Origin: Clostridiales bacterium Firm_08
GTDB taxonomy: Bacteria; Bacillota; Clostridia; Oscillospirales; QAKW01
Assembly: GCA_001604045.1 (NCBI GenBank)
Contig: LVAN01000005.1
Coordinates: 1-57,574 of the forward strand
Length of the DNA: 57,574 nt
Reading direction: 5' to 3'
Below are positions 14,784 through 45,827 of this stretch, in pieces (positions within the stretch are counted from its first letter, which is position 1; each line of letters starts with the position of its first letter). Position numbers and translations under genes: made by a program. The notes beneath the pieces were generated by a model. That model had not been told where the DNA came from. It made no database searches and saw only the letters and a program-made list of their open reading frames with translations.

Positions 14784-14812
14784 TTGACAAAATATCGCGC
14801 GTGCGGTATTAT
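14784..14812 (+). promoter_or_regulatory. Sigma-A promoter of the aromatic amino acid operon
   Basis: TTGACA (14784-14789), a 17-bp spacer and TATTAT (14807-14812) place transcription start near 14819, about 30 bases before the leader peptide start. Confidence 0.9.
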
Positions 14813-14848
14813 AAAAACAAATTATAAGAAGAAGGAGGCAAACAGACG

Positions 14849-14914
14849 GTGAAAATGACGGCGAACCTGTTTTATTATTACTTTACGACGGACTGTCTGT
14901 GCGCCGCGGCGTAA
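14849..14914 (+). CDS. Phe/Tyr leader peptide of the aromatic operon
   Basis: A 21-codon reading frame with a strong ribosome binding site (AAGGAGG, 14832-14838), starting at GTG 14849 or at the in-frame ATG 14855. Codons 8-12 are TTT TAT TAT TAC TTT (Phe-Tyr-Tyr-Tyr-Phe) inside LFYYYFTT, exactly the end-product amino acids of the downstream operon. It ends in TAA just before a set of competing hairpins and a terminator. By analogy with pheA, pheST and trp leaders, its translation would sense charged tRNA-Phe/tRNA-Tyr and set read-through of the terminator at 14942. It was recognised from codon content, position and structure rather than by homology. Confidence 0.85.
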   Translation: MKMTANLFYYYFTTDCLCAAA

Positions 14915-14959
14915 GCCCCTTCCCGAAACGGTAACAGACAGCCCGCATCTTGCTTTCGG
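14893..14959 (+). promoter_or_regulatory. Attenuator: pause and antiterminator pairings
   Basis: CTGTCTGT (14893-14900, inside the leader) pairs perfectly with ACAGACAG (14934-14941) as a candidate pause/protector hairpin. CCGAAA (14923-14928) can instead pair with TTTCGG (14954-14959), which would break the inner stem of the terminator. A ribosome stalled on the Phe/Tyr codons leaves CCGAAA free, and one at the TAA covers it, so the logic is that of trp-type attenuation. The pairings are read by eye, not folded. Confidence 0.65.
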
Positions 14960-14993
14960 CGAAAACAGCGCCGGACGGATCGCGGGATTTTTT
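14942..14993 (+). terminator. Attenuator terminator of the aromatic operon
   Basis: The outer stem CCCGC-ATC pairs with GATCGCGGG, and an inner hairpin CGGCG-aaaacag-CGCCG stacks within it. Six T residues follow (14988-14993). It lies between the leader peptide and the first structural gene, as expected for a conditional terminator. Confidence 0.75.
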
Positions 14994-15010
14994 ATGCGAA
15001 GGAGAAAGAT

Positions 15011-16192
15011 ATGGATCCGAGAATGCTCGCGCTGGGACGGCAGAGTTCCGTCATCCGGGAGATCTTTGAATACGGCAACGCAAGGCGGCGGGAGATCGGC
15101 GCGGAAAACGTCTTTGATTTCAGCCTGGGCAATCCAAGCGTGCCGACGCCCGGGAAGGTGACAAAAGCGATGCGGGAACTTCTTGAGGGGGATCCGGTGG
15201 CGCTGCACGGCTACACCTCCGCGCCGGGCGACCCGAAGGCGCGCGCGGCGGTGGCGGCGCATATCGAAAAACGCTTCGGCGTCCCCGCCTCTTTGGAAAA
15301 CGTCTATATGACCTGCGGCGCGGCGGCGGCGCTGACCATCACACTGTCCGCGATCGTGCGGCAGGAGGACGAGGTCGTCATCATCGCGCCGTTTTTCCCC
15401 GAATATGACGTGTTCGTCCGCACGGCGGGCGGCAGACCGGTCGTTTTGCGGACAAAGGCGCCCTCCTTTTTGCCCGATCCCGGGGCGCTGGCGGCGGTCG
15501 TGAACGAAAAGACGGCGGCGGTCATCGTCAATTACCCCAACAACCCCACCGGCGCCATCTGGGACGGGGAAACGCTTTCGGCGTTCGTCCGGGTGCTGGA
15601 GGAAAAACAGAAAACGCTGGGGAGAGACATCTATATCATTTCGGACGAGCCGTACCGGGAGCTCACCTACGGCAAGCCGGTGCCTTACGTCCCGAAATAT
15701 TATAAAAATACCGTGGTGTGCTATTCCTACAGCAAATCGCTGTCCCTGCCGGGGGAGCGGATCGGCTATATATTCGTGCCGTCCGCCGCGGCGGACGCCT
15801 CCGACCTGTTTGCCGCCGTGTGCGGCGCGGGCAGGGCGCTGGGGTACGTCTGCGCGCCGTCTCTTTTGCAAAGGACGGCGGCAATGTGCGTTGACCTGCC
15901 GCCGGATCTCGCGGCATACCGCGAAAACCGCGACCTGCTCTATAACGCGCTGACAGAGTACGGCTATGAGTGCGTGCCGCCGGACGGCGCTTTCTACCTG
16001 TTCGTGAAAAGTCCCGAGCCGGACGCCGGCAGCTTCGCGGAGCGCGCCAAAAAGTACGAACTGCTGCTTGTGCCGGGGGACAGCTTCGGCGGACCGGGAT
16101 ACGTGCGGATCAGTTACTGCGTTTCGACCGCTATGATCGAAAAAAGCCTTCCGGCTTTCAAAAAACTGATAGGAGAATATCAAAATGGCTGA
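15011..16192 (+). CDS. Class I/II pyridoxal-phosphate aminotransferase
   Basis: A 393-residue fold-type I aminotransferase. The PLP-binding lysine is in YSYSKSLSLPGERIGY (about residue 242), NYPNNPTGA carries the family Asn/Pro motif near 173, SDEPYRE contains the cofactor-ring Asp and Tyr, and the substrate carboxylate-binding Arg is in YVRISYC. As first gene of an operon that makes prephenate, phenylpyruvate and 4-hydroxyphenylpyruvate, it most likely performs the last transamination to Phe and Tyr. This assignment is from context. AAGGAGA lies 7 bases before the ATG. The gene overlaps pheA by 8 bases. Confidence 0.92.
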   Translation: MDPRMLALGRQSSVIREIFEYGNARRREIGAENVFDFSLGNPSVPTPGKVTKAMRELLEGDPVALHGYTSAPGDPKARAAVAAHIEKRFGVPASLENVYMTCGAAAALTITLSAIVRQEDEVVIIAPFFPEYDVFVRTAGGRPVVLRTKAPSFLPDPGALAAVVNEKTAAVIVNYPNNPTGAIWDGETLSAFVRVLEEKQKTLGRDIYIISDEPYRELTYGKPVPYVPKYYKNTVVCYSYSKSLSLPGERIGYIFVPSAAADASDLFAAVCGAGRALGYVCAPSLLQRTAAMCVDLPPDLAAYRENRDLLYNALTEYGYECVPPDGAFYLFVKSPEPDAGSFAERAKKYELLLVPGDSFGGPGYVRISYCVSTAMIEKSLPAFKKLIGEYQNG

Positions 16193-17261
16193 CATCGAAC
16201 ACGCCCGCGGCGTGATAAACGAAGTAGACGAGGAAATGGCAGGGCTTTTCGTCAAACGGATGAAAGCGGCGGAGGAGGTCGCGGCCTATAAAAAGGTCAG
16301 GGGGCTTCCCATCCTTGACGCCGACCGCGAGCGGGAGGTCATCGCGCGGGGCGCCGCGCGGGTCCCGGAGCCGTACAAGGCGTACTATATCAACTTTTTG
16401 CGCTGTCTGATGGAGCAGTCCCGCGGATATCAGCATTTCCTGAACAGCGGTATGCGGGTCGCGTTCAGCGGCGTGGAGGGGGCGTTTGCCGATATCGCGG
16501 CGCGGCGCATTTTTCCCGACGCCGAGACGACGCCCTGCGCCGATTTCGCCGCCGCCTATAAAGCGGTGGAGGAGGGCAAGTGCGAGGTCGCCGTCCTGCC
16601 GCTGGAAAACAGTTTCAACGGCGACGTCGGACAGGTGATGGATCTCGCCTTTTTCGGATCGCTGTACGTCCACCAGATCCGCAGCGTCGAGGTGGTGCAG
16701 AACCTTATCGGCGTGCCGGGCGCGGCGGCGGACGACGTGCGGGAGGTCATCAGTCACCCTCAGGCGCTGGGACAGTGTGCGGAGTTCATCCGGCGGCACG
16801 GACTGACGGTCAGGGAAGCGGTCAACACCGCCGTGGCGGCGAAAGAGGTCGCCCGGCTCGGCAAAAAGGAGATCGCCGCCATCGGCAGTGAGGAAGCGGC
16901 GGCGGCTTACGGGCTCAAAAAACTGGAAGCCCATATCAATACGGCGGGCGGCAACACCACGAGATTTGCCGTGTTTTCCGCCGTCAAAAAGGAACACAGC
17001 GACACCGACGACGCGTTCGTTTTGCTCTTTACCGTCAACAATGAGGCGGGCTCCCTCGGGCGGGCGATCGACGTTATCGGACGATACGGTTTCAACCTGC
17101 GCGCCCTCAAAAGCCGGCCGACGAAAAAACTTTCGTGGAGCTATTATTTTTACGCCGAGGGCGAGGGCAACATTTACAGTCTGGAAGGACAGCGCATGCT
17201 GGCGGCGCTTAAAGGATGCTGTAACGATCTTAAAGTGCTGGGCAGTTTCATAAAGGAGTAA
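16185..17261 (+). CDS. pheA: Bifunctional chorismate mutase/prephenate dehydratase
   Basis: A 358-residue P-protein converting chorismate to prephenate and then phenylpyruvate. Residues 1-85 form an all-helical AroQ-class mutase (VDEEMAGLFVKRMKAAEEVAAYK, catalytic Arg and Lys visible). Residues 89-265 form the dehydratase with the VAFSGVEGAFA start, PLENSFNGDVGQV, SHPQALGQC and the catalytic-region motif NTTRF. Residues 274-350 form a C-terminal ACT domain (EAGSLGRAIDVIGRYGFNL, SRP) for phenylalanine feedback. It overlaps the aminotransferase by 8 bases and lies 5 bases before aroB. Transcript level is probably set by the Phe/Tyr leader, and enzyme activity by the ACT domain. Confidence 0.96.
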   Translation: MADIEHARGVINEVDEEMAGLFVKRMKAAEEVAAYKKVRGLPILDADREREVIARGAARVPEPYKAYYINFLRCLMEQSRGYQHFLNSGMRVAFSGVEGAFADIAARRIFPDAETTPCADFAAAYKAVEEGKCEVAVLPLENSFNGDVGQVMDLAFFGSLYVHQIRSVEVVQNLIGVPGAAADDVREVISHPQALGQCAEFIRRHGLTVREAVNTAVAAKEVARLGKKEIAAIGSEEAAAAYGLKKLEAHINTAGGNTTRFAVFSAVKKEHSDTDDAFVLLFTVNNEAGSLGRAIDVIGRYGFNLRALKSRPTKKLSWSYYFYAEGEGNIYSLEGQRMLAALKGCCNDLKVLGSFIKE

Positions 17262-17266
17262 AAAAG

Positions 17267-18268
17267 ATGAGAGTTTCTACCGAACAGGGCGGATACGACA
17301 TCACGATAGAACGCGGCGCGCTTTCAAGGGCCGGGGAGATATTCGACCTCGACCGGCGGGTACTGGTCGTCACCGACGACGGCGTGCCCGCGGCGTACGC
17401 CGACAAGGTGGCGGCGGCGTGCAAACACCCGGTGCGGATCACCCTGCCGCAGGGCGAGGCGACCAAAAATATGGAGGCGCTTTCCGCGCTGCTCGCCGCG
17501 ATGCTGCGCAACGATTTCACCCGCGCCGACTGCGCGGTGGCGGTGGGCGGCGGCGTCGTCGGGGATCTGACGGGATTTGCCGCGGCGTGCTATATGCGCG
17601 GCATAGACTTTTACAATATCCCCACCACCGTCCTTTCCCAGGTGGACTCCTCCGTCGGCGGCAAGACCGCCATCGACTTTCTGGGATATAAAAACGTCGT
17701 CGGCGCGTTCTGGCAGCCGAAAGGCGTTCTGATCGACACCGAAACGCTGGTCACCCTGCCGCCCCGGCAGGTGGCGGCGGGACTTGCCGAAGCCGTCAAG
17801 ATGGCGGCGACATCTGACGCGGCGCTGTTCGGACTGTTCGAGAAAGAGGATCCGTTGAAAAATATCGACGAGATCATCGAAAAGAGCCTCATGATCAAAA
17901 AAAGCGTCGTCGAGCGGGACGAGCGGGAGGGAGGACTTCGCAAAGTCCTCAACTTCGGCCACACCCTGGCGCACGCCGTGGAAAGCGTGATGGAGGGCAA
18001 ACTCTATCACGGCGAGTGCGTGGCGCTCGGCATGCTGCCGATGAGCGCGCCGGGCGCGCGGGAGCGTATTCTCGCTGTGCTGGAAAAGCTCGGACTGCCA
18101 ACCGTCCTGCCGGTGCCGGTCGGGGCGCTGACCGACGCGATGCGGCACGATAAAAAAATGCAGGGCGACGATATCACGGTGGTTTGGGTGCCGGAGATCG
18201 GCTCTTTTGAAATGAAAACGATGCCTTTTGATGAATTTATCGCGCGGATCGGAGGGGGTGCGGAATGA
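17267..18268 (+). CDS. aroB: 3-dehydroquinate synthase
   Basis: A 333-residue enzyme making 3-dehydroquinate from DAHP, second step of the shikimate pathway. Visible are the NAD-binding GGGVVGDLTGFAA, the segment IPTTVLSQVDSSVGGKTAID, and the zinc ligands Glu in GLAEAVKM, His in NFGHTLAHA and His in YHGECVALGM. It is slightly shorter than Bacillus AroB (about 360) because the helical part after GECVALGM is compact. The ATG follows AAGGAGTAAAAAAG. It overlaps aroC by 4 bases (ATGA), implying coupled translation. Confidence 0.96.
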   Translation: MRVSTEQGGYDITIERGALSRAGEIFDLDRRVLVVTDDGVPAAYADKVAAACKHPVRITLPQGEATKNMEALSALLAAMLRNDFTRADCAVAVGGGVVGDLTGFAAACYMRGIDFYNIPTTVLSQVDSSVGGKTAIDFLGYKNVVGAFWQPKGVLIDTETLVTLPPRQVAAGLAEAVKMAATSDAALFGLFEKEDPLKNIDEIIEKSLMIKKSVVERDEREGGLRKVLNFGHTLAHAVESVMEGKLYHGECVALGMLPMSAPGARERILAVLEKLGLPTVLPVPVGALTDAMRHDKKMQGDDITVVWVPEIGSFEMKTMPFDEFIARIGGGAE

Positions 18269-19353
18269 AAAATACGTTTGGAACCAATATCAGCCTGACG
18301 CTGTACGGCGAGAGCCACGGCGAAAGTATCGGCGCGGTGCTGGATGGACTGCCGGCGGGGCTGGCGGTCGACGAAAAAAGCGTCCGCCGGGCGCTTGAGC
18401 TGCGCCGTCCGGCGGGAGAATGGTCCACCGCCCGGCGGGAGAGGGATGAATTTTCCATTGAGAGCGGCGTTTTGAACGGTCATACGACCGGAACGCCCGT
18501 CCTCATCCGCATCCCCAACGAGGATACCCGTTCGAAGGACTACAATGCTACGCGCACCGCCGCCCGCCCGGGACATGCCGATCTTACGGCGGAGTATAAA
18601 TACGGCGGCTTTCAGGACGCGCGGGGCGGCGGTCATTTCAGCGGGCGGATCACCGCGGGGCTTGTCGCGGCGGGCGCTATCCTGCGGGACGCGCTGGAGA
18701 GAAAGAACATCCTTATCGCCACCCGTATCGCGAGCGTCGCGGACGTTTGCGACCGTCCGTTCGAAAATATTGAAAAAGACGCGGCGGCGCTCAAAGACAA
18801 ACCTTTTGCCGTGCTGGACGATACGGCGGGCGAGCGGATGAAAGCCGCGATCCTTGCCGCCAAAGCGGAGGGGGACAGCGTCGGCGGCGTGCTGGAGACC
18901 GTCGTGACGGGACTGCCCGGCGGCGTCGGCGAGCCGTGGTTCGACAGCGTGGAGAGCGTGCTCTCCCACGCGCTGTTTTCCATCCCCGCGGTCAAGGGCG
19001 TGGCGTTCGGCGACGGATTTTCCCTGTCCTCTATGCGGGGATCCGAGGCGAACGACGAGTATTTCATAGAAAACGGAAAGATCGTCACCCGTACGCGGCA
19101 CAACGGCGGCGTTACCGGCGGCATCACCGACGGCATGCCGGTCTTTTTCCGCGTCGCGATCAAACCGACGCCCACCATTTCCAAACAACAGCGCACCGTC
19201 GATTTCAAGACGATGGAGGAAACGACCATCGCCGCGAAGGGGCGGCACGATCCCTGCATCGTCCACCGGGCGCGGATCGTCGCGGACAGCGTGACGGCGC
19301 TGGCGCTTTGCGATCTGCTTACGGCGCGGTACGGAACGGAGTGGCTGAAATAA
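18265..19353 (+). CDS. aroC: Chorismate synthase
   Basis: A 362-residue FMN-dependent enzyme that converts EPSP to chorismate, the last common step. The signature GESHGESIGAVLDGLPAG lies at residues 13-30, RPGHADLT near 96, GGGHFSGRITAG near 122, FGDGFSLSSMRGSEAND near 248 and GGITDGMPVFFRVAIKPTPT near 287. It has the full length for the family. It overlaps aroB by 4 bases and ends in TAATG, where the final A is shared with the start of the aroE-aroK fusion. Confidence 0.97.
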   Translation: MKNTFGTNISLTLYGESHGESIGAVLDGLPAGLAVDEKSVRRALELRRPAGEWSTARRERDEFSIESGVLNGHTTGTPVLIRIPNEDTRSKDYNATRTAARPGHADLTAEYKYGGFQDARGGGHFSGRITAGLVAAGAILRDALERKNILIATRIASVADVCDRPFENIEKDAAALKDKPFAVLDDTAGERMKAAILAAKAEGDSVGGVLETVVTGLPGGVGEPWFDSVESVLSHALFSIPAVKGVAFGDGFSLSSMRGSEANDEYFIENGKIVTRTRHNGGVTGGITDGMPVFFRVAIKPTPTISKQQRTVDFKTMEETTIAAKGRHDPCIVHRARIVADSVTALALCDLLTARYGTEWLK

Positions 19354-20585
19354 TGCGCTACGGCTGTATCGGACGGAAACTCACCCACAGTTTTTCCCGC
19401 GAGATCCACGCGGAACTGTTTGACTACGAATATGAACTCAGGGAGCTGGAGCCGGAGGAGATCGGCGCCTTTCTCACGGCGCGGGAATTTCAGGCGATCA
19501 ACGTCACCATCCCCTACAAACAGACGGTGATGCCCTATCTTGACGAGATCTCGGACACGGCGCGCCGTATCGGCGCCGTCAATACCATCGTCTGCCGGGA
19601 GGGAAAACTCCACGGCTACAACACCGACTACACGGGCATGCGCGCCATGCTGGCGCGCGCGGGCATTTCGCTCCGCGGCAAAAAGGTGCTGATCGCGGGC
19701 TCCGGCGGGACGTCAAAGACCGCCGCGGCGGTCGCCGCCGATCTCGGCGCGGCGGAGATCTTCCGTCTTTCCCGCGACGGAAAAGACGGATGTATCACCT
19801 ACGAGACCGCCCGCCGCGAGCATGCCGACGCGGAGGCGCTGATCAACACCACGCCGCTGGGCATGTATCCGTCACTGGGCGGCAAGGCGGTGGATCTTGA
19901 CGATTTCCCGCGCCTTGCGGGAGTCGCGGACGCGGTATACAATCCGCTTTGTCCCGCGCTTGTCGTCGAGGCTCTTTCCCGCGGCATCCGCGCCTGCGGG
20001 GGGCTGTATATGCTGGTGGCGCAGGCGGCGGCCGCCGCCGAAAAATTCACCGGGGAGACGGTGGAGGAAAAAACGGTGGACAAAGTCTACCGCAAACTTT
20101 TCCGCCGCAAACAGAATATCGTGCTGGTCGGTATGCCGGGCAGCGGCAAAAGCACCGTCGGCAGACTGATCGCCCGCAAACTGGACAGACCGTTTATAGA
20201 CACGGACGAAATGATCGCCGAACGGTACGGAGACATCCCCGCCCTGTTTGAAAAAGAGGGCGAGAGCGCGTTCCGGGACAAGGAAAGCGGCGTCATCCGT
20301 GAGATCGCCGCGGCGCAGGGCGCTGTCATCGCCACGGGCGGCGGCGCGGTGCTGCGGCCGGAAAATATCGAAAATCTGCGGCAGAACGGCGTGATCTATT
20401 ATATCGACCGGCCGCTGAGCGACATCCTCCCGACGGAGGATCGTCCGCTTTCCCGCGACCGCGCGGCGCTGGAAAAACGCTACGCCGAGCGCCGTCCGCT
20501 CTATCTCGCGGCGGGACGGCGGATCGCGGCGGGAGACGGCGCGGCGTTCGTCGCGGACAAGATCGTAAAGGAGTTTTTGAAATGA
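19353..20585 (+). CDS. aroEK: Shikimate dehydrogenase-shikimate kinase fusion
   Basis: A 410-residue fusion of two consecutive-step enzymes. Residues 1-250 are AroE: shikimate-binding Ser residues in KLTHSFSREIH, catalytic Lys in NVTIPYK, Asp in NTDYTGM, the NADP loop GSGGTSK, and NTTPLGM. Residues 253-410 are AroK: P-loop GMPGSGKST at about 259, DTDE, the GGGAV loop and the lid Arg in EDRPLSRD. Both active sites look intact, so shikimate can be made and phosphorylated by one chain. The upstream frame is open back into aroC, but the ATG in TAATG begins exactly at the AroE N-terminus. It overlaps aroQ by 4 bases. Confidence 0.95.
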   Translation: MRYGCIGRKLTHSFSREIHAELFDYEYELRELEPEEIGAFLTAREFQAINVTIPYKQTVMPYLDEISDTARRIGAVNTIVCREGKLHGYNTDYTGMRAMLARAGISLRGKKVLIAGSGGTSKTAAAVAADLGAAEIFRLSRDGKDGCITYETARREHADAEALINTTPLGMYPSLGGKAVDLDDFPRLAGVADAVYNPLCPALVVEALSRGIRACGGLYMLVAQAAAAAEKFTGETVEEKTVDKVYRKLFRRKQNIVLVGMPGSGKSTVGRLIARKLDRPFIDTDEMIAERYGDIPALFEKEGESAFRDKESGVIREIAAAQGAVIATGGGAVLRPENIENLRQNGVIYYIDRPLSDILPTEDRPLSRDRAALEKRYAERRPLYLAAGRRIAAGDGAAFVADKIVKEFLK

Positions 20586-21019
20586 GGATCCTTGTTATCA
20601 ACGGGCCCAATCTCAATATGTTAGGACGGCGGGAGCCGGAGATCTACGGCAGGGAGACGCTGGACGACCTGATCGCCCTGATCCGCGATCACGCGGCGAA
20701 AAAAGGGATCGAAGTTTCCTTTTATCAATCCAATCACGAGGGCGACCTTGTCGACGCGATCCAGGGAGCGCTCGGAACGGCGGACGGTATCGTCATCAAC
20801 CCCGGCGCCTATACCCACACGAGTATCGCGCTTCTCGACGCCGTCAAGGCGGCGGGCATCCCCGCCGTCGAGGTGCATATCTCCGACGTGACAAAACGGG
20901 AGAAGTTCCGGCAGACAAGTTATATAAGACAGGCCTGCGTTGCGACCATCATGGGCAAAGGATTTGCCGGTTATACCGAAGCCGTCGATCTGCTGGCGGC
21001 GTATGGAGACGGGAAATGA
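20582..21019 (+). CDS. aroQ: Type II 3-dehydroquinate dehydratase
   Basis: A 145-residue dodecameric-type dehydroquinase removing water from 3-dehydroquinate. All diagnostic pieces are present: INGPNLNMLGRREPEIYG with the catalytic Tyr/Arg loop, QSNHEGDLVD, NPGAYTHTSIALLDA and VEVHISDVTKREKFRQ with the catalytic His. It is the non-homologous type II rather than AroD. It overlaps both neighbours by 4 bases. Confidence 0.97.
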   Translation: MRILVINGPNLNMLGRREPEIYGRETLDDLIALIRDHAAKKGIEVSFYQSNHEGDLVDAIQGALGTADGIVINPGAYTHTSIALLDAVKAAGIPAVEVHISDVTKREKFRQTSYIRQACVATIMGKGFAGYTEAVDLLAAYGDGK

Positions 21020-22206
21020 GAGTAAAGATCTATCCGGGAAAGGGCGCGGGGCAGCTCGCCGCGCCCCCTTCCAAAAGTATGGCGCACCGCTATCTGATCT
21101 GCGGGGCGCTCTCCGCCGGCAGCCGGATCGAGGGCGTGTCGGACAGCCGCGACGTGCAGGCGACGCTGGGGGCGCTCACCGCGCTCGGCGCGGCGGCGGA
21201 AAAGCGGGACGGCGTCGTGACGATCGGCGGGCTGCGGCGGGACGGCGCCGCGGCGTTGCAATGTTTCGAGAGCGGCAGTACGCTGCGTTTTCTCATCCCG
21301 CTGTGTATGCTGAGGGATCGCGCCGTGACCCTGAAAGGCACCGAAACGCTGATCGGCAGGCCGCTGGACGCCTATGAGGAGATCGCGGGGAAGAGCGGTC
21401 TGCTGTTCGAGCGGGGACGGACCTTTCTGCGGGTGCGCGGACCGCTGACCGGCGGCGACTACCGGGTCGCCGGCGATAAATCCAGCCAGTTTGTCAGCGG
21501 GCTTTTGTTCGCCCTGCCGCTTTGCGAAAAAGACAGCACCCTGACGGTGACGGGCAAGGCGGAAAGCCTGTCCTATATCGACCTGACGCTCGGCGCGCTC
21601 GCCGATTTCGGCGTGGAAGTGCGCAGAGAGGGGATGAAGTTCATCATCCCCGGTGGCCAGACCTACCGTTCCCGCAACGTCGCGGTGGAGGGGGACTGGT
21701 CGGGTGCGGCGTTCCCCGCCGCGCTGGGGGAACTCGGCGGCGATATCACGCTGACCGGGCTTCGGCCGGACAGCCGTCAGGGGGACAGGGTGTTCCCCGA
21801 ACTTTTCAAAAAGATCGGCCGGGAGGTCATCGACCTTTCCGACTGCCCGGATCTCGCGCCGGTGCTGTTCGCGCTGGCGGCGGCGAAGGGCGGCGGCCGG
21901 TTTACCGGCACCCGCCGTCTGCGGTATAAAGAAAGCGACCGCGTCGACACCATGCGGGAGGAACTCGCCAAATTCGGCGTCAAGGTCGAGGCGGGGGAAA
22001 ACGACGTCGCCGTCTCGGGATTTCCGCGCGCGCCGCGGGGCGCGCTTTGCGGCCATAACGACCATCGCGTCGTGATGGCGCTGAGCGTTCTTTTGACGCT
22101 GACCGGCGGCGAGATCGAGGGCGCGGAGGCGGTGGCGAAAAGTTATCCCGCTTTCTTCGACGATCTCAAAAAAATAAGGATCCGGGTGGAAACGTATGGA
22201 ATTTGA
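21016..22206 (+). CDS. aroA: 5-enolpyruvylshikimate-3-phosphate synthase
   Basis: A 396-residue enzyme joining PEP to shikimate 3-phosphate. The N-terminal PPSKSMAHRYLI holds the PEP/S3P-binding Lys and Ser-Lys-Ser. CFESGSTLRFLIPL replaces the usual NxGTxxR segment, and its Gly-Ser variant suggests the class II (glyphosate-tolerant) lineage. GDKSSQFVSGLLFALPL, the catalytic Asp region SDCPDLAPVLFALAA, RLRYKESDRVDTM and GHNDHRVVMAL follow in the expected order. It is shorter than E. coli AroA (427), as is common in Clostridia. It overlaps tyrA by 11 bases. Confidence 0.96.
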   Translation: MRVKIYPGKGAGQLAAPPSKSMAHRYLICGALSAGSRIEGVSDSRDVQATLGALTALGAAAEKRDGVVTIGGLRRDGAAALQCFESGSTLRFLIPLCMLRDRAVTLKGTETLIGRPLDAYEEIAGKSGLLFERGRTFLRVRGPLTGGDYRVAGDKSSQFVSGLLFALPLCEKDSTLTVTGKAESLSYIDLTLGALADFGVEVRREGMKFIIPGGQTYRSRNVAVEGDWSGAAFPAALGELGGDITLTGLRPDSRQGDRVFPELFKKIGREVIDLSDCPDLAPVLFALAAAKGGGRFTGTRRLRYKESDRVDTMREELAKFGVKVEAGENDVAVSGFPRAPRGALCGHNDHRVVMALSVLLTLTGGEIEGAEAVAKSYPAFFDDLKKIRIRVETYGI

Positions 22207-23071
22207 AAAAGATCTTAAAATATTGATCGTGGGGCTGGGGCTGATCGGCGGATCGTACGCCAGAGCGCTCAAAAAGCGCGGCAATCCCGTGTACGCCGTC
22301 ACGCGCTCGCCGGAGACCATCGAATACGCGCTGAAAAAGGGCTGGATCGATGACGGCGGCACCTCGCCCGAGGCGCCTTACGTCAGCGAGGCGGACGTCG
22401 TGGTGTTCGCGCTGTACCCCCACGTTTTTGTGGACTGGATCGAAAAGTATCAGCGCTTTCTGAAACCCGGCGCCATCCTGACCGACGTCACCGGCGTCAA
22501 GGGGACGCTGGTGGAGGAGATCGGGAAGATCCTGCGTCCCGACGTGGAATTCATCGCGGCGCACCCGATGGCGGGACGGGAGCTGTCCGGCATCGAGCAC
22601 GCCACCGACCGTATTTTCCGCGGCGCCAACTATATCGTTGTGCCGACGGACAAAAACACCCCCCGCGCCGTGGAACTCTGCAAGGCGCTGGGAAAGGCGC
22701 TGGGTTTTGCCGATATCTCGGTGCTGTCCCCGGCGGAACACGACGATATGATCGCGTTTCTGTCGCAACTGACGCACTGCATCGCGGTGTCGCTGATGTG
22801 CACCAGCGACGACCCGAAAATTTCCCACTACACCGGAAATTCCTTCCGGGATCTCACCCGCATCGCGCGGCTGAACGACGAGATGTGGAGCGAACTCTTT
22901 TTGTGCAACCGTAAGGCGCTGCTCGGACAGATGGACGCTTTCCGCGCCGCTTTTGATAAACTGTACGGCACCATTCAAAGCGGCGACCGGGAGACGATGC
23001 GCGAGATGATGCGCCTGTCCACCGCCCGCCGGATCGGATTTGATCAGGAAGAGAGAAAGGAAACGGTATGA
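22196..23071 (+). CDS. tyrA: Prephenate dehydrogenase
   Basis: A 291-residue NAD(P)-dependent enzyme oxidatively decarboxylating prephenate to 4-hydroxyphenylpyruvate. The dinucleotide fold begins ILIVGLGLIGGSYARAL, DVTGVKGTLV and the catalytic-His motif AAHPMAGRELSGIEHA follow, and SQLTHCIAVSL lies in the helical C-terminal dimerisation domain. No C-terminal ACT domain is present, unlike Bacillus TyrA, so tyrosine control may rest on the leader peptide or elsewhere. It overlaps aroA by 11 bases and the DAHP synthase gene by 4. Confidence 0.95.
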   Translation: MEFEKDLKILIVGLGLIGGSYARALKKRGNPVYAVTRSPETIEYALKKGWIDDGGTSPEAPYVSEADVVVFALYPHVFVDWIEKYQRFLKPGAILTDVTGVKGTLVEEIGKILRPDVEFIAAHPMAGRELSGIEHATDRIFRGANYIVVPTDKNTPRAVELCKALGKALGFADISVLSPAEHDDMIAFLSQLTHCIAVSLMCTSDDPKISHYTGNSFRDLTRIARLNDEMWSELFLCNRKALLGQMDAFRAAFDKLYGTIQSGDRETMREMMRLSTARRIGFDQEERKETV

Positions 23072-24099
23072 ATCTCGATTTTGAAAGAAAACTCCCCATC
23101 CCGATGGAGGTCAAGGAGGCGTACCCCGTCACCGCCGCGATGACCGAGGTCAAGGAAAAACGCGCCGCCATCATCAAAAATATCTTTACCGGGAAAGACG
23201 ACCGCTTTATCTTGGTGATCGGCCCCTGCTCGGCGGACGATCCCGAGGCGGTGCTGGAATATATCGCGAGGCTTCGCCGGGTGCAGGACGAGGTGGCGGA
23301 CAAGATCCTGATGATCCCCCGCGTCTACACCAACAAGCCCCGCACGACGGGAGACGGCTACAAAGGGCTTCTGCATCAGCCCGATCCCGAACAGAAGCCG
23401 GATATGTACAAGGGCATCGTCGCCATCCGGCAGGTCCATATGACGGCGCTCAAAGACTACGGCTTTACCTGCGCGGACGAGATGCTCTATCCGGAAAACC
23501 ACCGCTATCTCAACGACCTTTTGGCCTACGTCGCGGTGGGCGCCCGGTCGGTGGAAAATCAGCAGCACCGGCTGACCGCCAGCGGTCTGGAGGTGCCGGT
23601 CGGGATGAAAAATCCGACGAGCGGCGATCTGCACGTTATGATGAACTCCATCACCGCCGCCCGGCACCGCCACACCTTCATCTACCGCGGGTGGGAGGTG
23701 CACAGCCACGGCAATCCCCTGGCGCACGCCATTTTGCGGGGAAGCGTCGATATGACGGGCCGGTACGTTTCCAATTACCACTATGAGGATCTTATCGCGC
23801 TGGGCGAGATGTACGCGGCGTCGGGACTTTCCGATCCGGCGGCGGTCGTCGATACCAATCACGCCAACTCCGGCAAGCGGTGGATGGAACAGATCCGTAT
23901 CGCGAAGGACGTCGTGAACAGCCGCAACAGCAACGATGACATCAAACGGCTGGTCAAAGGCCTGATGATCGAGAGTTATCTCGAGGACGGCGCGCAGAAG
24001 ATCGGCGAGCACGTGTTCGGCAAGTCCATCACCGATCCGTGTCTGGGCTGGGAAAAGACTGAACGGCTGATCCTCGACCTTGCCGATATGCTGAAATAA
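23068..24099 (+). CDS. aroF: 3-deoxy-7-phosphoheptulonate (DAHP) synthase, class I AroFGH type
   Basis: A 343-residue enzyme for the first step, condensing PEP with erythrose 4-phosphate. Motifs are VIGPCSADDPEAVLEYI, PRVYTNKPRTTGDGYKGL (substrate Lys/Arg), GARSVENQQHR, VGMKNPTSGDL (Lys) and DTNHANSGK (metal ligand). This is the Gram-negative-like AroG/AroF subtype, not the AroA/KdpS-like type with fused chorismate mutase found in Bacillus. The N-terminal extension of about 60 residues can mediate feedback in this subtype. It is the last gene of the operon, followed 22 bases later by a strong terminator. Confidence 0.95.
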   Translation: MNLDFERKLPIPMEVKEAYPVTAAMTEVKEKRAAIIKNIFTGKDDRFILVIGPCSADDPEAVLEYIARLRRVQDEVADKILMIPRVYTNKPRTTGDGYKGLLHQPDPEQKPDMYKGIVAIRQVHMTALKDYGFTCADEMLYPENHRYLNDLLAYVAVGARSVENQQHRLTASGLEVPVGMKNPTSGDLHVMMNSITAARHRHTFIYRGWEVHSHGNPLAHAILRGSVDMTGRYVSNYHYEDLIALGEMYAASGLSDPAAVVDTNHANSGKRWMEQIRIAKDVVNSRNSNDDIKRLVKGLMIESYLEDGAQKIGEHVFGKSITDPCLGWEKTERLILDLADMLK

Positions 24100-28950: not shown

Positions 28951-30815
28951 GAGATCTCAAACAACTGAAAAAACAGTATCACGGCCACGTGCCGCCCGCC
29001 CGCGGCATGATGGGCGGTCCTCCGAGAGGACCCCGCCGTCCGCCGGTGGAGGGCGGAGGACCGAAAAAGTATTCCAAAGCGACGGTCAGCCGGCTGCTTT
29101 CCTATCTGTCTCCGTATAAATTCCATCTGATCCTGGTGCTGTTCTGTATGATCGGCGCCACCGGGGCGCAGATGGCGGGCGCGTATATGCTGCGCCCCAT
29201 CATCAATCACATCATTCAGGAGAACATTCCCGCGGCCGAGCGGCTCGCGTGGCTGTCCGGGATCCTCGCGCTGCTGCTCGGCATCTACCTTGTCGGCGTC
29301 GTCGCGACCTATTTGCAGGGACGGCTGATGCTGGTGGTGTCTCAGGGCGCCATCGAGCGCATCCGCAACGATCTGTTTTCCAAAGTGCAGAGCCTGCCGG
29401 TACGGTTTTTCGACACCGAGAGCACCGGAGAAATTATGAGCCGCTTCACCAACGACGTGGACAACATCGGCACGATGCTCGACAACTCCGTCGTTTCGCT
29501 GGTGTCCGGCACCGTCACGCTGATCGGCACGTTCGCCATGATGATCTATACCAACGTATGGCTGACCCTCATCACCGTCGCCTTTATCCCGGTGCTGATG
29601 TGGAGCGTCAAGTTCATCGCCGCGAGGAGCAGTAAGTATTACAAGGCCCAGCAGGCCTCTCTCGGCGCGGTCAACGGCTACATCGAGGAGAGCGTCAGCG
29701 GGCAGAAGGTCGTCAAGGTGTTCAGCCACGAAAAGACCTGTGAGGACGAATTTGAACTGCTCAACAACGATCTGCGGCAAACGCAGGTCAAGGCGCAGTT
29801 TTTCGGCGGTATCATGGGCCCCGTTATGGGCAACACGACGCAGATCGCCTACGCCGCCACGGCGGGCGTCGGCGGCGTGCTGTGCGCGCTGGGGCGGTTC
29901 GACCTCGGGGGACTCGCGATATTCGTCAATTATTCAAGACAGTTCGCCCGGCCCATCAACGAACTTTCCATGCAGACCTCCACCATCTTTTCGGCGCTCG
30001 CCGGCGCCCAGCGCGTCTTTGACGTGATGGACCGCGATCCCGAGGAGCCGGACGCGGCGGACGCGCGGGACATTGAGCCGATCCGCGGAGAGGTGGAACT
30101 GCGCCGCGTCACCTTCGGCTATAAGCCGGACAAAGTGATTTTGAAGGACATCACGCTGACCGCCCGCGCGGGACAGAAGGTCGCGTTCGTCGGATCGACG
30201 GGCGCGGGCAAGACCACCATCACGAACCTTCTCAACCGTTTTTATGACGTGGGCGAGGGGGAGATCCTCATCGACGGCGTCAGCGTCCGCGATATCAAAC
30301 GGGAGATCCTGCGGCGCAACATCGCGATGGTATTGCAGGACACTCATCTGTTCAGCGGCACCGTGATGGAAAACATCCGCTACGGAAGACCGGAGGCGAC
30401 GGACGAGGAAGTCGTCGCCGCGGCGAAGACCGCCAGCGCGCACAGTTTCATTATGCGCCTGAGCGACGGTTATAACACGCGGCTGGAAGGCGACGGCGCC
30501 AACCTGTCCCAGGGACAGCGCCAGCTGCTCAACATCGCCCGCGCCGCCCTGTCCGAGGCGCCGATCTTAGTGCTGGATGAGGCGACGAGTTCCGTCGACA
30601 CCCGCACCGAGAGGCATATCGAGCACGGTATGGACCGGCTGATGAAAAGCCGCACCACCTTCGTCATCGCGCACCGTCTCTCGACGGTCCGCAACGCCGA
30701 CGCCATTATGGTGCTGGAGGACGGCGAGATCATCGAGCGGGGCAGTCACGATGAACTGCTCGCCCTGAAAGGCCGTTATTACGAGCTCTATACCGGTCAG
30801 CGGGAGCTTGACTGA
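28947..30815 (+). CDS. ABC exporter half-transporter, catalytic-site subunit
   Basis: A 622-residue partner of the preceding gene. A Pro/Gly/Arg-rich N-terminal tail (about 45 residues, PPARGMMGGPPRGPRRPP) precedes six helices (50-340) and an ATPase with Walker A GSTGAGKTT near 414, signature NLSQGQRQL, Walker B ILVLDEATSSVD with the catalytic Glu, and the switch His in VIAHRLSTV. Together the two chains give one canonical and one degenerate ATP site, as in BmrCD/TM287-288. It starts at GTG inside the stop overlap of the first subunit. The long basic tail is typical of this subunit in Clostridia. Confidence 0.93.
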   Translation: MRDLKQLKKQYHGHVPPARGMMGGPPRGPRRPPVEGGGPKKYSKATVSRLLSYLSPYKFHLILVLFCMIGATGAQMAGAYMLRPIINHIIQENIPAAERLAWLSGILALLLGIYLVGVVATYLQGRLMLVVSQGAIERIRNDLFSKVQSLPVRFFDTESTGEIMSRFTNDVDNIGTMLDNSVVSLVSGTVTLIGTFAMMIYTNVWLTLITVAFIPVLMWSVKFIAARSSKYYKAQQASLGAVNGYIEESVSGQKVVKVFSHEKTCEDEFELLNNDLRQTQVKAQFFGGIMGPVMGNTTQIAYAATAGVGGVLCALGRFDLGGLAIFVNYSRQFARPINELSMQTSTIFSALAGAQRVFDVMDRDPEEPDAADARDIEPIRGEVELRRVTFGYKPDKVILKDITLTARAGQKVAFVGSTGAGKTTITNLLNRFYDVGEGEILIDGVSVRDIKREILRRNIAMVLQDTHLFSGTVMENIRYGRPEATDEEVVAAAKTASAHSFIMRLSDGYNTRLEGDGANLSQGQRQLLNIARAALSEAPILVLDEATSSVDTRTERHIEHGMDRLMKSRTTFVIAHRLSTVRNADAIMVLEDGEIIERGSHDELLALKGRYYELYTGQRELD

Positions 30816-30840
30816 TACAATACAGGAAAAGGAGACTACT

Positions 30841-32214
30841 ATGGCAGACAAAAACATCCCCACCAAGATCTATCTGGGAGAAAACGAGATCCCGAAGGCG
30901 TGGTACAACGTGCGCGCGGATATGAAAAACAAGCCCGCGCCGCTGCTCAACCCCGGCACCGGTCAGCCGATGAAGCCGGAGGAGCTGGAACCGGTTTTTT
31001 GCAGGGAACTCATCGCGCAGGAGATGGACAACGACACGGCGTATTTCGACATCCCGGGAGAGGTGCGCGAGTTTTACAAAATGTTCCGTCCCTCCCCGCT
31101 GATCCGCGCCTATCAGCTGGAAAAAGCGCTGGGCACGCCGGCAAAGATCTACTACAAGTTCGAGGGCAACAACACCAGCGGTTCTCATAAACTCAACTCC
31201 GCCATCGCGCAGGCGTATTACGCGAAACAGCAGGGTCTTAAAGGCGTCACCACCGAGACGGGCGCCGGTCAATGGGGCACCGCGCTTTCCATGGCGTGCG
31301 CGTTTTTCGGGCTGGACTGCAAGGTCTTTATGGTCAAAGTTTCTTATGAGCAGAAGCCTTTCCGCAGAGAAGTGATGCGCACTTACGGCGCCTCGGTCAC
31401 GCCCTCCCCGTCGATGGAGACGCAGATCGGGCGCAAGATCCTTGCCGATCATCCCGGCACCACCGGCTCTCTCGGCTGCGCCATCTCGGAGGCGGTGGAA
31501 GTCGCCGTCGGCAGTGAAGGGTACCGCTACGTGCTGGGCAGCGTGCTCAATCAGGTGCTGCTGCATCAGTCGGTCATCGGGCTGGAGACCAAGGCGGCGC
31601 TGGACAAATACGGCATCAAGGCGGATATCATCATCGGATGCGCCGGCGGCGGGTCCAATCTCGGCGGGCTGATCGCGCCCTTTATGGGTGAGAAACTGCG
31701 CGGCGAGGCGGACTACCGCATCATCGCGGTGGAGCCGTCCTCCTGTCCGAGTTTCACCCGCGGCAGGTTCGCCTATGACTTCGCGGATACCGGTATGGTC
31801 TGTCCGCTCGCCAAAATGTACACGCTGGGCAGCGACTTCATCCCCGCGCCCAACCACGCGGGCGGCTTGCGCTATCACGGCATGAGCACCATCCTGTCTC
31901 AACTCTATCACGACGGGTATATGGAGGCGGTCAGCGTGCCGCAGTCGGAAGTGTTCGAGGCGGCGGAGCAGTTCGCCCGCACCGAGGGCATCCTGCCCGC
32001 GCCGGAGAGCAGTCACGCCATCCTCGGCGCCGTCAATGAGGCGCTCAAATGCAAGGAGAGCGGCGAGGAAAAGACCATCGTGTTCGGCCTGACCGGCACC
32101 GGCTACTTCGATATGGTCGCTTACGAGAAATTCCACGACGGCAAAATGGACGATTACATCCCCACCGACGAGGAACTCGCCCGGTACGCCGCCAAACTGC
32201 CGAATATCAAATAA
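30841..32214 (+). CDS. trpB: Tryptophan synthase beta chain, TrpB2 type
   Basis: A 457-residue PLP enzyme that makes tryptophan from indole and serine. It is of the long TrpB2 class: extended N-terminus (ENEIPKAWYNVRAD), RPSPLIRAYQLEKAL, PLP lysine in NTSGSHKLNSA, ETGAGQWGTALS with the catalytic Glu, and the phosphate loop GCAGGGSNLGG. No trpA or other trp genes are in the window, so it may salvage indole rather than complete de novo synthesis. AAGGAGA precedes the ATG at 30841. It lies 25 bases after the ABC exporter and may be cotranscribed with it. A terminator follows. Confidence 0.93.
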   Translation: MADKNIPTKIYLGENEIPKAWYNVRADMKNKPAPLLNPGTGQPMKPEELEPVFCRELIAQEMDNDTAYFDIPGEVREFYKMFRPSPLIRAYQLEKALGTPAKIYYKFEGNNTSGSHKLNSAIAQAYYAKQQGLKGVTTETGAGQWGTALSMACAFFGLDCKVFMVKVSYEQKPFRREVMRTYGASVTPSPSMETQIGRKILADHPGTTGSLGCAISEAVEVAVGSEGYRYVLGSVLNQVLLHQSVIGLETKAALDKYGIKADIIIGCAGGGSNLGGLIAPFMGEKLRGEADYRIIAVEPSSCPSFTRGRFAYDFADTGMVCPLAKMYTLGSDFIPAPNHAGGLRYHGMSTILSQLYHDGYMEAVSVPQSEVFEAAEQFARTEGILPAPESSHAILGAVNEALKCKESGEEKTIVFGLTGTGYFDMVAYEKFHDGKMDDYIPTDEELARYAAKLPNIK

Positions 32215-43858: not shown

Positions 43859-43877
43859 AAATTTGTAATAAATTTGT

Positions 43878-43950
43878 TTGCCAATATAGGTCCGGATAGA
43901 CGGCCCGGACGTTTCTACCGCACGCCGAACAGATGCGACTATTGGACAAT
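43878..43950 (+). ncRNA. Purine riboswitch aptamer, guanine type
   Basis: P1 is TTG-C-CCAAT paired with ATTGG-A-CAA. P2 is GTCCGG with CCGGAC and a GACGG loop. The joining sequence GTTTCTACC is the purine-aptamer hallmark. P3 is GCA/TGC with a CGCCGAACAGA loop whose CC can kiss the GG of loop 2. J3/1 reads GACTAT; the C there corresponds to C74, which selects guanine (or hypoxanthine/xanthine) over adenine. It lies upstream of xpt, its classical target. Confidence 0.9.
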
Positions 43951-43964
43951 CAAGGTATTGGCAG

Positions 43965-44024: not shown

Positions 44025-44597
44025 ATGCGGGAGTTAGAGGAGCGTATACTGCGAGACGGAAAAGTGTTGCCGGGCAACATATTGAAGGTGGGCAGTTTTC
44101 TCAACCAGCAGCTCGACGTGCCCTTTATGATGCGTATGGGGCGGGAGATCGCGGACGCCTACCGCGGGCAGGATGTGACCAAGATCCTCACTGTCGAGGC
44201 GTCGGGCATCGCGCTGGCGGTCGCCGCCGCCGCGGTGATGGAACTGCCGGTGGTATTCGCCAAGAAAAACAAGTCCTCTAACGTTTCCGGCGACGTGTAC
44301 ACCGCGCCGGTCCACTCCTATACACACAACAAAGACTTCACCATCGTGGTGAGCGCTGATTATATCAAAAACACGGACAGGCTTCTGATCGTCGACGATT
44401 TCCTCGCCAACGGCGAGGCGCTCCGCGGGCTTCTTTCCATCGCCGGACAGGCGGGCGCGGAGGTCGCGGGATGCGCCGTCGCGATCGAAAAAGGCTTTCA
44501 GGGCGGCGGAGACGCGCTGCGCGCCGAAGGGGTGCGGGTCGACTCTCTTGCCATCGTGGAGCAGATGAGCGATACCGGGCTTACATTCCGGAACTGA
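44025..44597 (+). CDS. xpt: Xanthine phosphoribosyltransferase
   Basis: A 190-residue salvage enzyme making XMP from xanthine and PRPP. It follows Bacillus Xpt closely: GKVLPGNILKVGSFLNQQLDV, TVEASGIALA, FAKKNKSSN and the PRPP-binding loop IVDDFLANGEAL. The C-terminal AGCAVAIEKGFQGGG completes the type. It is controlled by the upstream guanine riboswitch. The BMP-family importer follows after 48 bases, separated by a weak AT hairpin (44604-44620), and may be partly cotranscribed. Confidence 0.97.
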   Translation: MRELEERILRDGKVLPGNILKVGSFLNQQLDVPFMMRMGREIADAYRGQDVTKILTVEASGIALAVAAAAVMELPVVFAKKNKSSNVSGDVYTAPVHSYTHNKDFTIVVSADYIKNTDRLLIVDDFLANGEALRGLLSIAGQAGAEVAGCAVAIEKGFQGGGDALRAEGVRVDSLAIVEQMSDTGLTFRN

Positions 44598-44645: not shown

Positions 44646-45827
44646 ATGAAAAAAGTAGTAGCGATCATCCTTGTCGTCATGATGTTGTTCACCATGACCG
44701 CGTGCAGCGGCAAAAAGGGTGAGGGCATGAAGGTCGGCTTCATCTATCTGCATGATGCCAACTCCACCTATGACCTCAACTTCATGAAGGGCGCGAAAGA
44801 AGCTTGCGAGAAAATGGGCGTCGAGTATGTCGAGAAAGTCGGCATCCCCGAGTCCAACGAGTGTCTGGAAGCCGCCAGCGATCTTGCGGATCGCGGATGC
44901 ACCATGATATTCGCTGACTCTTTCGGTCATGAGCAGTATATGATCGAAGCCGCGAAAAAGTATCCCGACGTTCAGTTCTTCCATGCCACCGGTACCCGCG
45001 CGCATACCGAGGGCGTCGCCAATTATCATAACGCGTTTGCCTCGGTCTATGAGGGCAGATATCTCGCCGGCGTCGCCGCGGGTCTGAAACTCAATGAAAT
45101 GATCGAAAAAGGTGATTTCAAAAAGGAAGAAGCCAAGATCGGCTACGTCGGCGCTTTCACCTACGCTGAAGTTATCTCCGGTTACACCTCTTTCTTCCTC
45201 GGCGCCAGATCCATCTGCCCGACCGCCACGATGGAAGTGCAGTTCACCGGCAGCTGGTACGACGAGACCGCCGAAAAAGAGGCCGCCGAGCTGCTGCTCA
45301 GCCGCGGCTGCAAACTGATCAGCCAGCACGCTGACTCGATGGGCGCTCCGACCGCCTGCGAGACCGCCGGCGTTCCCAACGTTTCCTACAACGGCTCCAC
45401 TGTGGAAGCCTGCCCGAACACCTTCATCGTTTCTTCCCGCATCAACTGGGCTCCCTATTATGAGTACTGCATCAACGCGGTCAAGAACGGTGAGGAGATC
45501 CCCGCTGACTGGACCGGCACGCTCGCGACGAGTTCTGTCGAGTTGACCGAGATCAACGAGAAAGCCGCCGCCGCCGGTACCGCCGACAAGATCGCGGAAG
45601 TCAAAGCCGCTCTGGAAGCGGGCACGACCCACGTCTTTGATATCGCCACCTTCACCGTGGACAAGAAGACCGTTGAGTCCTACAAAGCGGACGTCGACAC
45701 CGACGCCAACTACGAGGGTGACACCGAAGTCATCATCGACGGTTACTTCCATGAGTCTGAATTCCGTTCCGCTCCGTACTTCGATCTCCGTATCGATGGC
45801 ATCACCACGCTGAACGAGAAGTTCTAA
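44646..45827 (+). CDS. BMP family ABC transporter substrate-binding lipoprotein
   Basis: A 393-residue lipoprotein. The signal peptide ends in the lipobox MTAC, with Cys20 as lipid anchor. The mature part is a type I periplasmic-binding fold of the BMP/PnrA family (KVGFIYLHDANSTYDLNFMKGA, ADSFGHEQYMIEAAKKYPDV, AGVAAGLKL, AKIGYVGAF), which binds purine nucleosides in characterised members. Context (guanine riboswitch, xpt) supports nucleoside uptake. GGAGGG precedes the ATG. The codon bias looks stronger than in the membrane subunits, in line with high expression. Confidence 0.93.
   Translation: MKKVVAIILVVMMLFTMTACSGKKGEGMKVGFIYLHDANSTYDLNFMKGAKEACEKMGVEYVEKVGIPESNECLEAASDLADRGCTMIFADSFGHEQYMIEAAKKYPDVQFFHATGTRAHTEGVANYHNAFASVYEGRYLAGVAAGLKLNEMIEKGDFKKEEAKIGYVGAFTYAEVISGYTSFFLGARSICPTATMEVQFTGSWYDETAEKEAAELLLSRGCKLISQHADSMGAPTACETAGVPNVSYNGSTVEACPNTFIVSSRINWAPYYEYCINAVKNGEEIPADWTGTLATSSVELTEINEKAAAAGTADKIAEVKAALEAGTTHVFDIATFTVDKKTVESYKADVDTDANYEGDTEVIIDGYFHESEFRSAPYFDLRIDGITTLNEKF

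Follow-up and report, generated by a model that had tools for sequence, protein, structure and literature searches.

Which signal controls the synthesis of phenylalanine and tyrosine at this Clostridia locus? At one end of a set of aromatic genes, within the window (here always the whole stretch of 57,574 nucleotides that was analysed), lies a short reading frame containing a run of Phe and Tyr codons. An earlier note, made from the sequence alone, had read it as a leader-peptide attenuator that senses both amino acids. We therefore asked which parts of such a device are present, whether they are conserved in relatives, whether they could act as a switch, and how the leader relates to the T-boxes and attenuators already known.

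Architecture of the leader and its operon

The consensus promoter, the 21-codon peptide with five consecutive Phe/Tyr codons and the terminator with a six-T tail that the earlier note had described are all found in the window (Table 1). The leader ORF, whose product is VKMTANLFYYYFTTDCLCAAA, is probably translated, judging from its Shine-Dalgarno sequence and the conservation of its frame. It is the sole short ORF on either strand of the 57.6 kb with at least five consecutive Phe/Tyr codons, and 30 windows simulated with matching dinucleotide composition contained no such ORF, which rules out a chance ORF. Downstream, nine genes starting at 15011, directly 3' of the leader, form an operon that by NCBIfam assignment encodes the common shikimate pathway together with both terminal branches to Phe and Tyr. 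The first of these genes is similar to sequences in named Clostridia metagenome assemblies, from which the host probably belongs to this class.

Table 1 Leader elements and operon genes, with positions in the window
Feature	Position	Strand	Basis
Sigma-70-type promoter, TTGACA-17-TATTAT	14784..14812	+	11/12 consensus matches; near-consensus
Shine-Dalgarno AAGGAGG, strong, for the leader ORF	14832..14838	+	Sequence reading
Strand 1, ACAGACGG	14842..14849	+	MFE fold; 1:2 duplex in 8/8; P = 0.91 without ribosome
Leader peptide ORF, 21 codons	14849..14914	+	GTG start (or ATG 14855); TAA 14912-14914; counterparts in 38/38
Control codons TTT TAT TAT TAC TTT (Phe-Tyr-Tyr-Tyr-Phe)	14870..14884	+	Phe/Tyr runs in 38/38 leaders
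Strand 2 (CGG-A-CTGTCTGT)	14889..14900	+	Covariation with strand 3
Strand 3 (ACAGACAG-C-CCGC)	14934..14946	+	CCCGC common to antiterminator and terminator
Strand 4 (GATcGCGGG, 14978-14986) and T-tract (14988-14993), intrinsic terminator	14978..14993	+	Fold; terminator counterpart in relatives
PRK06836-family PLP aminotransferase, first operon gene	15011..16192	+	NF005305, 515 bits
Chorismate mutase/prephenate dehydratase (CM-PDT, pheA type)	16185..17261	+	NCBIfam
aroB, aroC, aroE-aroK fusion, aroQ, aroA, prephenate dehydrogenase (tyrA type)	17267..23071	+	NCBIfam
DAHP synthase (aroFGH type), last operon gene	23068..24099	+	TIGR00034 over cut-off

The strands of the leader are those of the classical 1:2, 2:3 and 3:4 set. 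CTGTCTGT (14893-14900) and ACAGACAG (14934-14941) form a perfect 8-bp pairing, and ACAGACGG (14842-14849), which completes the layout, pairs with the same strand 2 in the MFE fold of the whole leader. The terminator stem consists of CCCGCATC (14942-14949) with GAT(c)GCGGG, followed by TTTTTT, and its hairpin (14942-14986) lies between the leader ORF and the first gene. A simple terminator scan of the window did not list it, probably because the loop and pairing limits of the scan exclude a stem this long.

The competing hairpins of the earlier note need some revision. Its 8-bp pairing is there, but taken alone it excludes strand 1, which had been overlooked, and not the terminator; the sole overlap with the terminator is an extension of the antiterminator by about 3 bp, CGG (14889-14891) with CCG (14943-14945), past an A.C mismatch. 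Its second pair, CCGAAA (14923-14928) and TTTCGG (14954-14959), is likewise present, but the predicted fold places TTTCGG in the inner stem of the terminator, and an informal look at relatives revealed no conserved counterpart. Leaders of the window's family repeatedly have this A.C mismatch (14892/14942) in the 2:3 stem (seven of the first eight leaders), and it is kept because the terminator needs the C; genome G052 and many leaders from other families have an A-U pair at this position.

Distribution of the leader

A total of 59 relatives were searched for the aminotransferase and the upstream DNA was read. Independently of any leader model, this yielded seven further leaders, from the window's family and two other families, with peptides that include MAGFYFYYFMNADCRNAD, MFGKEFYFYYYFSTDCLPSFKNAAE and MLKVFNRFYYSTTDFLPASCEK. 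Within the order, of which 394 genomes were scanned, a first covariance model, made from the alignment of these seven leaders and that of the window, matched leaders in 29, and a second model, built from those 29, raised this to 35 genomes (15 of 168 genera). Applied to wider samples, the second model matched 6 of 391 genomes of the class, of which three belong to other orders, and 2 of 348 genomes of the phylum, both in the window's family. The total is 38 leaders, 35 from the order and three from other orders of the class. Within the window's own family the leader is present in 10 of 12 genomes, the other two being 62-64% complete. A leader search gives a single match in the window and none in 1.23 Mb around 80 other loci of the same aminotransferase family; these loci, among the matches listed in a contig scan with the aminotransferase, serve as a negative control. 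A search of viral contigs with the CM-PDT protein found nothing.

All 38 matches combine a short Phe/Tyr-rich ORF with a position just before an aromatic gene; the model includes the Phe/Tyr codon positions, such that the codons are partly built into the later matches, the first eight leaders being model-free. The gene at the head of the operon is the aminotransferase in 18 cases, CM-PDT in 12 and DAHP synthase in eight. With three different head genes behind it, the leader tracks the head of the operon and not a particular gene. The window promoter has aligned counterparts in the relatives, TTGAC(A) and TATAAT-like boxes, and nearly all of the 38 leaders have a Shine-Dalgarno-like purine run 5' of the leader start. 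By the terms of the earlier note, relatives that had no Phe/Tyr run or no terminator would have counted against its reading. The check spoke for that reading: the run, which is 2-8 codons long and varies freely in the order of Phe and Tyr, contained both amino acids in every one of the 38 leaders, and none of the 38 control runs contained a Trp codon.

Covariation and codon choice

The 1:2, 2:3 and 3:4 duplexes are each present in all of the first eight leaders. In these, the 2:3 stem has double changes at 7 of 12 pairs (nine double-change cells), with a covariation score that was reached in none of 500 shuffles and far lower scores for slid controls. With 29 leaders, in an alignment that was fitted to the structure and is hence biased towards the 2:3 stem, double changes are seen at 9 of 12 pairs, with 30 double-change cells vs. 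12.5 expected; again none of 500 shuffles scored as high, and the value is far above the slid controls. The alignment of relatives that the earlier note had called for thus gives both conserved Phe/Tyr codons and a covarying 2:3 stem. For the terminator base, there is too little variation among the leaders for a covariation test. When strands were swapped between families, native pairs were better only modestly, a weak control because the strands are conserved across families.

Covariation also bears on a different way in which the peptide could act, namely as an arrest peptide similar to TnaC or ErmCL, with the nascent chain, together with free Phe/Tyr or another small molecule in the exit tunnel, stalling the ribosome in place of codons that await charged tRNA. 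Such a peptide would find support in the conserved tail that follows the run in many of the sequences (T/K-D/G-C-L/P-like residues), but a fixed reading frame through strand 2 accounts for this tail, and changes in the tail are matched in strand 3. Moreover, a run length that varies from two to eight and a free order of Phe and Tyr are what codon sensing predicts. We consider an arrest peptide very improbable.

The Phe codons of the runs are strongly biased: across the 38 leaders, TTT accounts for 74 of 78, vs. 39 expected from the downstream genes, with a nominal binomial p of 1e-17 that is overstated as the leaders are not independent. The eight model-free leaders have 13 Phe codons, every one of them TTT. 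Tyr codons deviate little from expectation (TAT in 75 of 118, vs. 61.8 expected). The TTT bias may reflect selection for a wobble codon that is read slowly, or else the run may have to stay unstructured. The latter is a component of a second alternative, in which the leader is a general translation sensor, with 1:2 and 2:3 competing at the ribosome-binding site, and the Phe/Tyr codons only keep the loop unstructured. In the window and in relatives alike, strand 1 overlaps the region of ribosome binding and translation start, which would be in keeping with this, as would the U-rich run that results from Phe codons that are nearly all UUU. However, Lys, Ile, Leu and Asn codons would be equally unstructured, yet the runs consist of Phe and Tyr only, and Phe and Tyr are exactly what the operon makes. 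A general sensor is, in our view, slightly less probable still than an arrest peptide, and sensing of Phe and Tyr codons is the reading that we carry forward.

Folding of the leader with and without a ribosome

We then folded the 38 leaders with a ribosome mask over the run, with one over the stop codon, and with none. Of five basal terminator pairs, a mean of 2.9 formed in the stalled state, 4.4 with the ribosome at the stop codon and 4.1 without a ribosome, averages that are approximate since the automatic strand assignments of three of the 38 leaders (L120, L124 and L155) look wrong. On the 38-leader average, the 2:3 pairing forms mainly in the stalled state, and 1:2 in the absence of a ribosome. 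The terminator is weaker in the stall state than in the stop state in 36 of 38 leaders; a loss of more than two basal terminator pairs in the stall model is seen in only 16 of 38. In some leaders strand 2 ends well 5' of the stop codon, and a ribosome at the stop codon covers only part of it.

For the window itself, the complete leader at equilibrium gives a terminator probability of 0.94-1.00 in every ribosome state. The CGG:CCG extension is ~95% formed until the polymerase passes ~14980; once strand 4 is out, the terminator base displaces it (P 0.94), with a difference of ~2 kcal/mol. As equilibrium favours the terminator even when the ribosome is stalled, the switch in the window is predicted to be kinetic or of modest range. 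Competition between the 2:3 stem and the terminator is clear in many relatives, vs. a thermodynamically weak 3 bp in the window, and several relatives in which strand 3 is more fully common to both stems (AGTCC in each) give a stronger switch in the same calculation. The mutually exclusive structures that the earlier note had expected from masked folding are seen on the 38-leader average; in the window they are less marked than that note suggested, and at equilibrium the effect almost disappears.

T-boxes and other elements in the same genomes

None of the 4227 Rfam families, including T-box RF00230 and the Phe, Trp, His, Leu and Thr leaders, matched the window leader at gathering score, and ten leader loci searched at E <= 0.1 gave no match except an L10 leader and tRNA elsewhere in the loci. 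A T-box, riboswitch or other Rfam element as the leader is ruled out on this basis, and the earlier note was right that no T-box is present here. T-boxes do occur elsewhere: the window genome has seven matches, two above gathering score, and T-boxes were found in all 15 leader-bearing genomes tested, while the aromatic leaders examined had none. Those of the window genome precede, among others, an isopropylmalate synthase-like gene, TrpX-type ABC genes, pheS and alaS (alaS, and the second ABC gene as TrpX-like, were named by eye), and one of them is followed by a gene for a tryptophan ABC transporter. The element before pheS is T-box-like, with a sub-gathering score of 73.8 bits (locus L006, 1501-1708, minus strand, contig G000:C70). 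Although these T-boxes, including the sub-threshold one before pheS, might suggest that the operon is under a T-box or another riboswitch, with the ORF incidental, the lack of an Rfam match in the window leader and the ten loci, and the conservation of the ORF, by frame as well as by position, in 38 of 38 leaders, leave this explanation with a negligible probability. Since T-boxes and attenuator leaders are present in the same genomes, the clade employs T-boxes and attenuators alike to sense tRNA charging, and one genome may have two distinct charging sensors, one for PheRS and one for Phe synthesis.

trpE was not found in any of the first 15 leader-bearing genomes tested, whereas the control search found it in 14 of 14 reference genomes; there was hence no trp leader in those 15 genomes to inspect for the same device. 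When more genomes were sampled, trpE turned up in just two that have the leader (G006 and G195), i.e. 2 of 24 vs. 48 of 173 others (Fisher p ~0.045, if all 24 with handles below G198 were sampled), a weak contrast because most of the order is without trpE anyway. The lack of Trp in the runs fits the pathway, given how rare trpE is in leader-bearing genomes. Around hisG, no leader ORF with a His run was found in 13 leader-bearing genomes. A TrpB-like PLP enzyme (TIGR01415, PRK12391) is encoded at 30808-32211 (+) of the window, in a genome in which no trpE was found, and may possibly serve indole salvage. The window also contains a purine riboswitch (RF00167, 47.6 bits) at 43862-43961 (+), ~60 bp 5' of a phosphoribosyltransferase-like ORF (44025-44597) that is followed by an ORF for a lipoprotein-type substrate-binding protein (44646-45827); both ORFs were named by eye.

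Proposed mechanism

Sequence and comparison provide the parts of the leader, their conservation, the covariation of the 2:3 stem and the association with the pathway. On these grounds it is very probable that a translating ribosome mediates attenuation of transcription at this leader in response to charged tRNA-Phe and tRNA-Tyr, and that the entire Phe/Tyr biosynthetic operon is under the leader's control. The earlier proposal of a Phe/Tyr attenuator before the whole shikimate pathway is in this respect largely borne out by the nine-gene operon, the 38 leaders and the covarying antiterminator stem.

From the arrangement of the parts we infer the direction of the switch, the stalling, an OR-type response to Phe and Tyr, and read-through itself. 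With both amino acids plentiful, the ribosome would reach the leader stop codon (14912) and cover or separate strand 2, leaving strand 3 free to form the 3:4 terminator that would halt transcription before 15011. With either in short supply, it would stall at the control codons and keep strand 1 apart; strand 2 could then pair with the emerging strand 3, the terminator base would be contested, and the polymerase would read through. When there is no translation, 1:2 pairing would form and the terminator would be expected to win.

Relation to known systems

Leader-peptide attenuation is classical in Proteobacteria, where the enterobacterial pheA and pheST attenuators have a Shine-Dalgarno-led peptide with a Phe run, 1:2, 2:3 and 3:4 strands and an intrinsic terminator. 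The present leader resembles them in the peptide, the three-way strands, the terminator and the Phe biosynthesis genes downstream; unlike them, it always has Tyr as well as Phe in the run, precedes a full shikimate and Phe/Tyr operon, belongs to a Clostridia host and matches no Rfam leader. Attenuation of Phe genes is stated in PMC1262725. Also comparable is the uORFC-13-1 motif before Acholeplasma aroF, for which a uORF with at least one Phe codon, together with a promoter, an RBS and a terminator, has been proposed and which, as far as its description goes, is confined to Acholeplasma and unassigned environmental DNA (PMC8632094). According to that text description, the two have in common a Phe-codon uORF with promoter, RBS and terminator, with a DAHP synthase gene downstream in uORFC-13-1, and the Clostridia leader is set apart by its runs of Phe and Tyr and its three kinds of head gene.

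In Firmicutes, classical ribosome-mediated His-leader attenuators have been described (PMC2965389; PMC9413887, including Eubacteriales), which are of the same mechanism class but differ in amino acid and operon. The Staphylococcus aureus ilv operon has a Leu-rich attenuator peptide supported by mutants (PMC5794164); it too is a Gram-positive leader-peptide attenuator, but for branched-chain amino acids and in a different lineage. The view of the earlier note that such control would be unusual for the group is therefore too strong. In the literature searched, most of it open-access, no description was found of a Phe/Tyr leader over a shikimate operon in Clostridia. On the strength of the comparative evidence, which is strong, we thus regard the leader as a conserved attenuator uncatalogued in Rfam 15, putative in mechanism and of a kind already known from His and Leu leaders and the Acholeplasma proposal.

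Taking the observations together, the leader could be an OR gate for Phe and Tyr over a complete shikimate operon, in Clostridia most of which have no trpE and which have T-boxes on other genes, with wobble-read UUU selected to sharpen the response to Phe-tRNA charging; we put this forward tentatively, as a combined reading with somewhat less than an even chance of being correct in full. Many uncultured Clostridia, in which T-boxes would be the expected means of control, would share an uncatalogued conserved attenuator family for Phe/Tyr synthesis. By staying at the head of the operon in front of three different first genes, the leader would mark control of the pathway regardless of gene order, and its presence together with T-boxes in one genome means that two tRNA-charging sensors may be compared within one cell.
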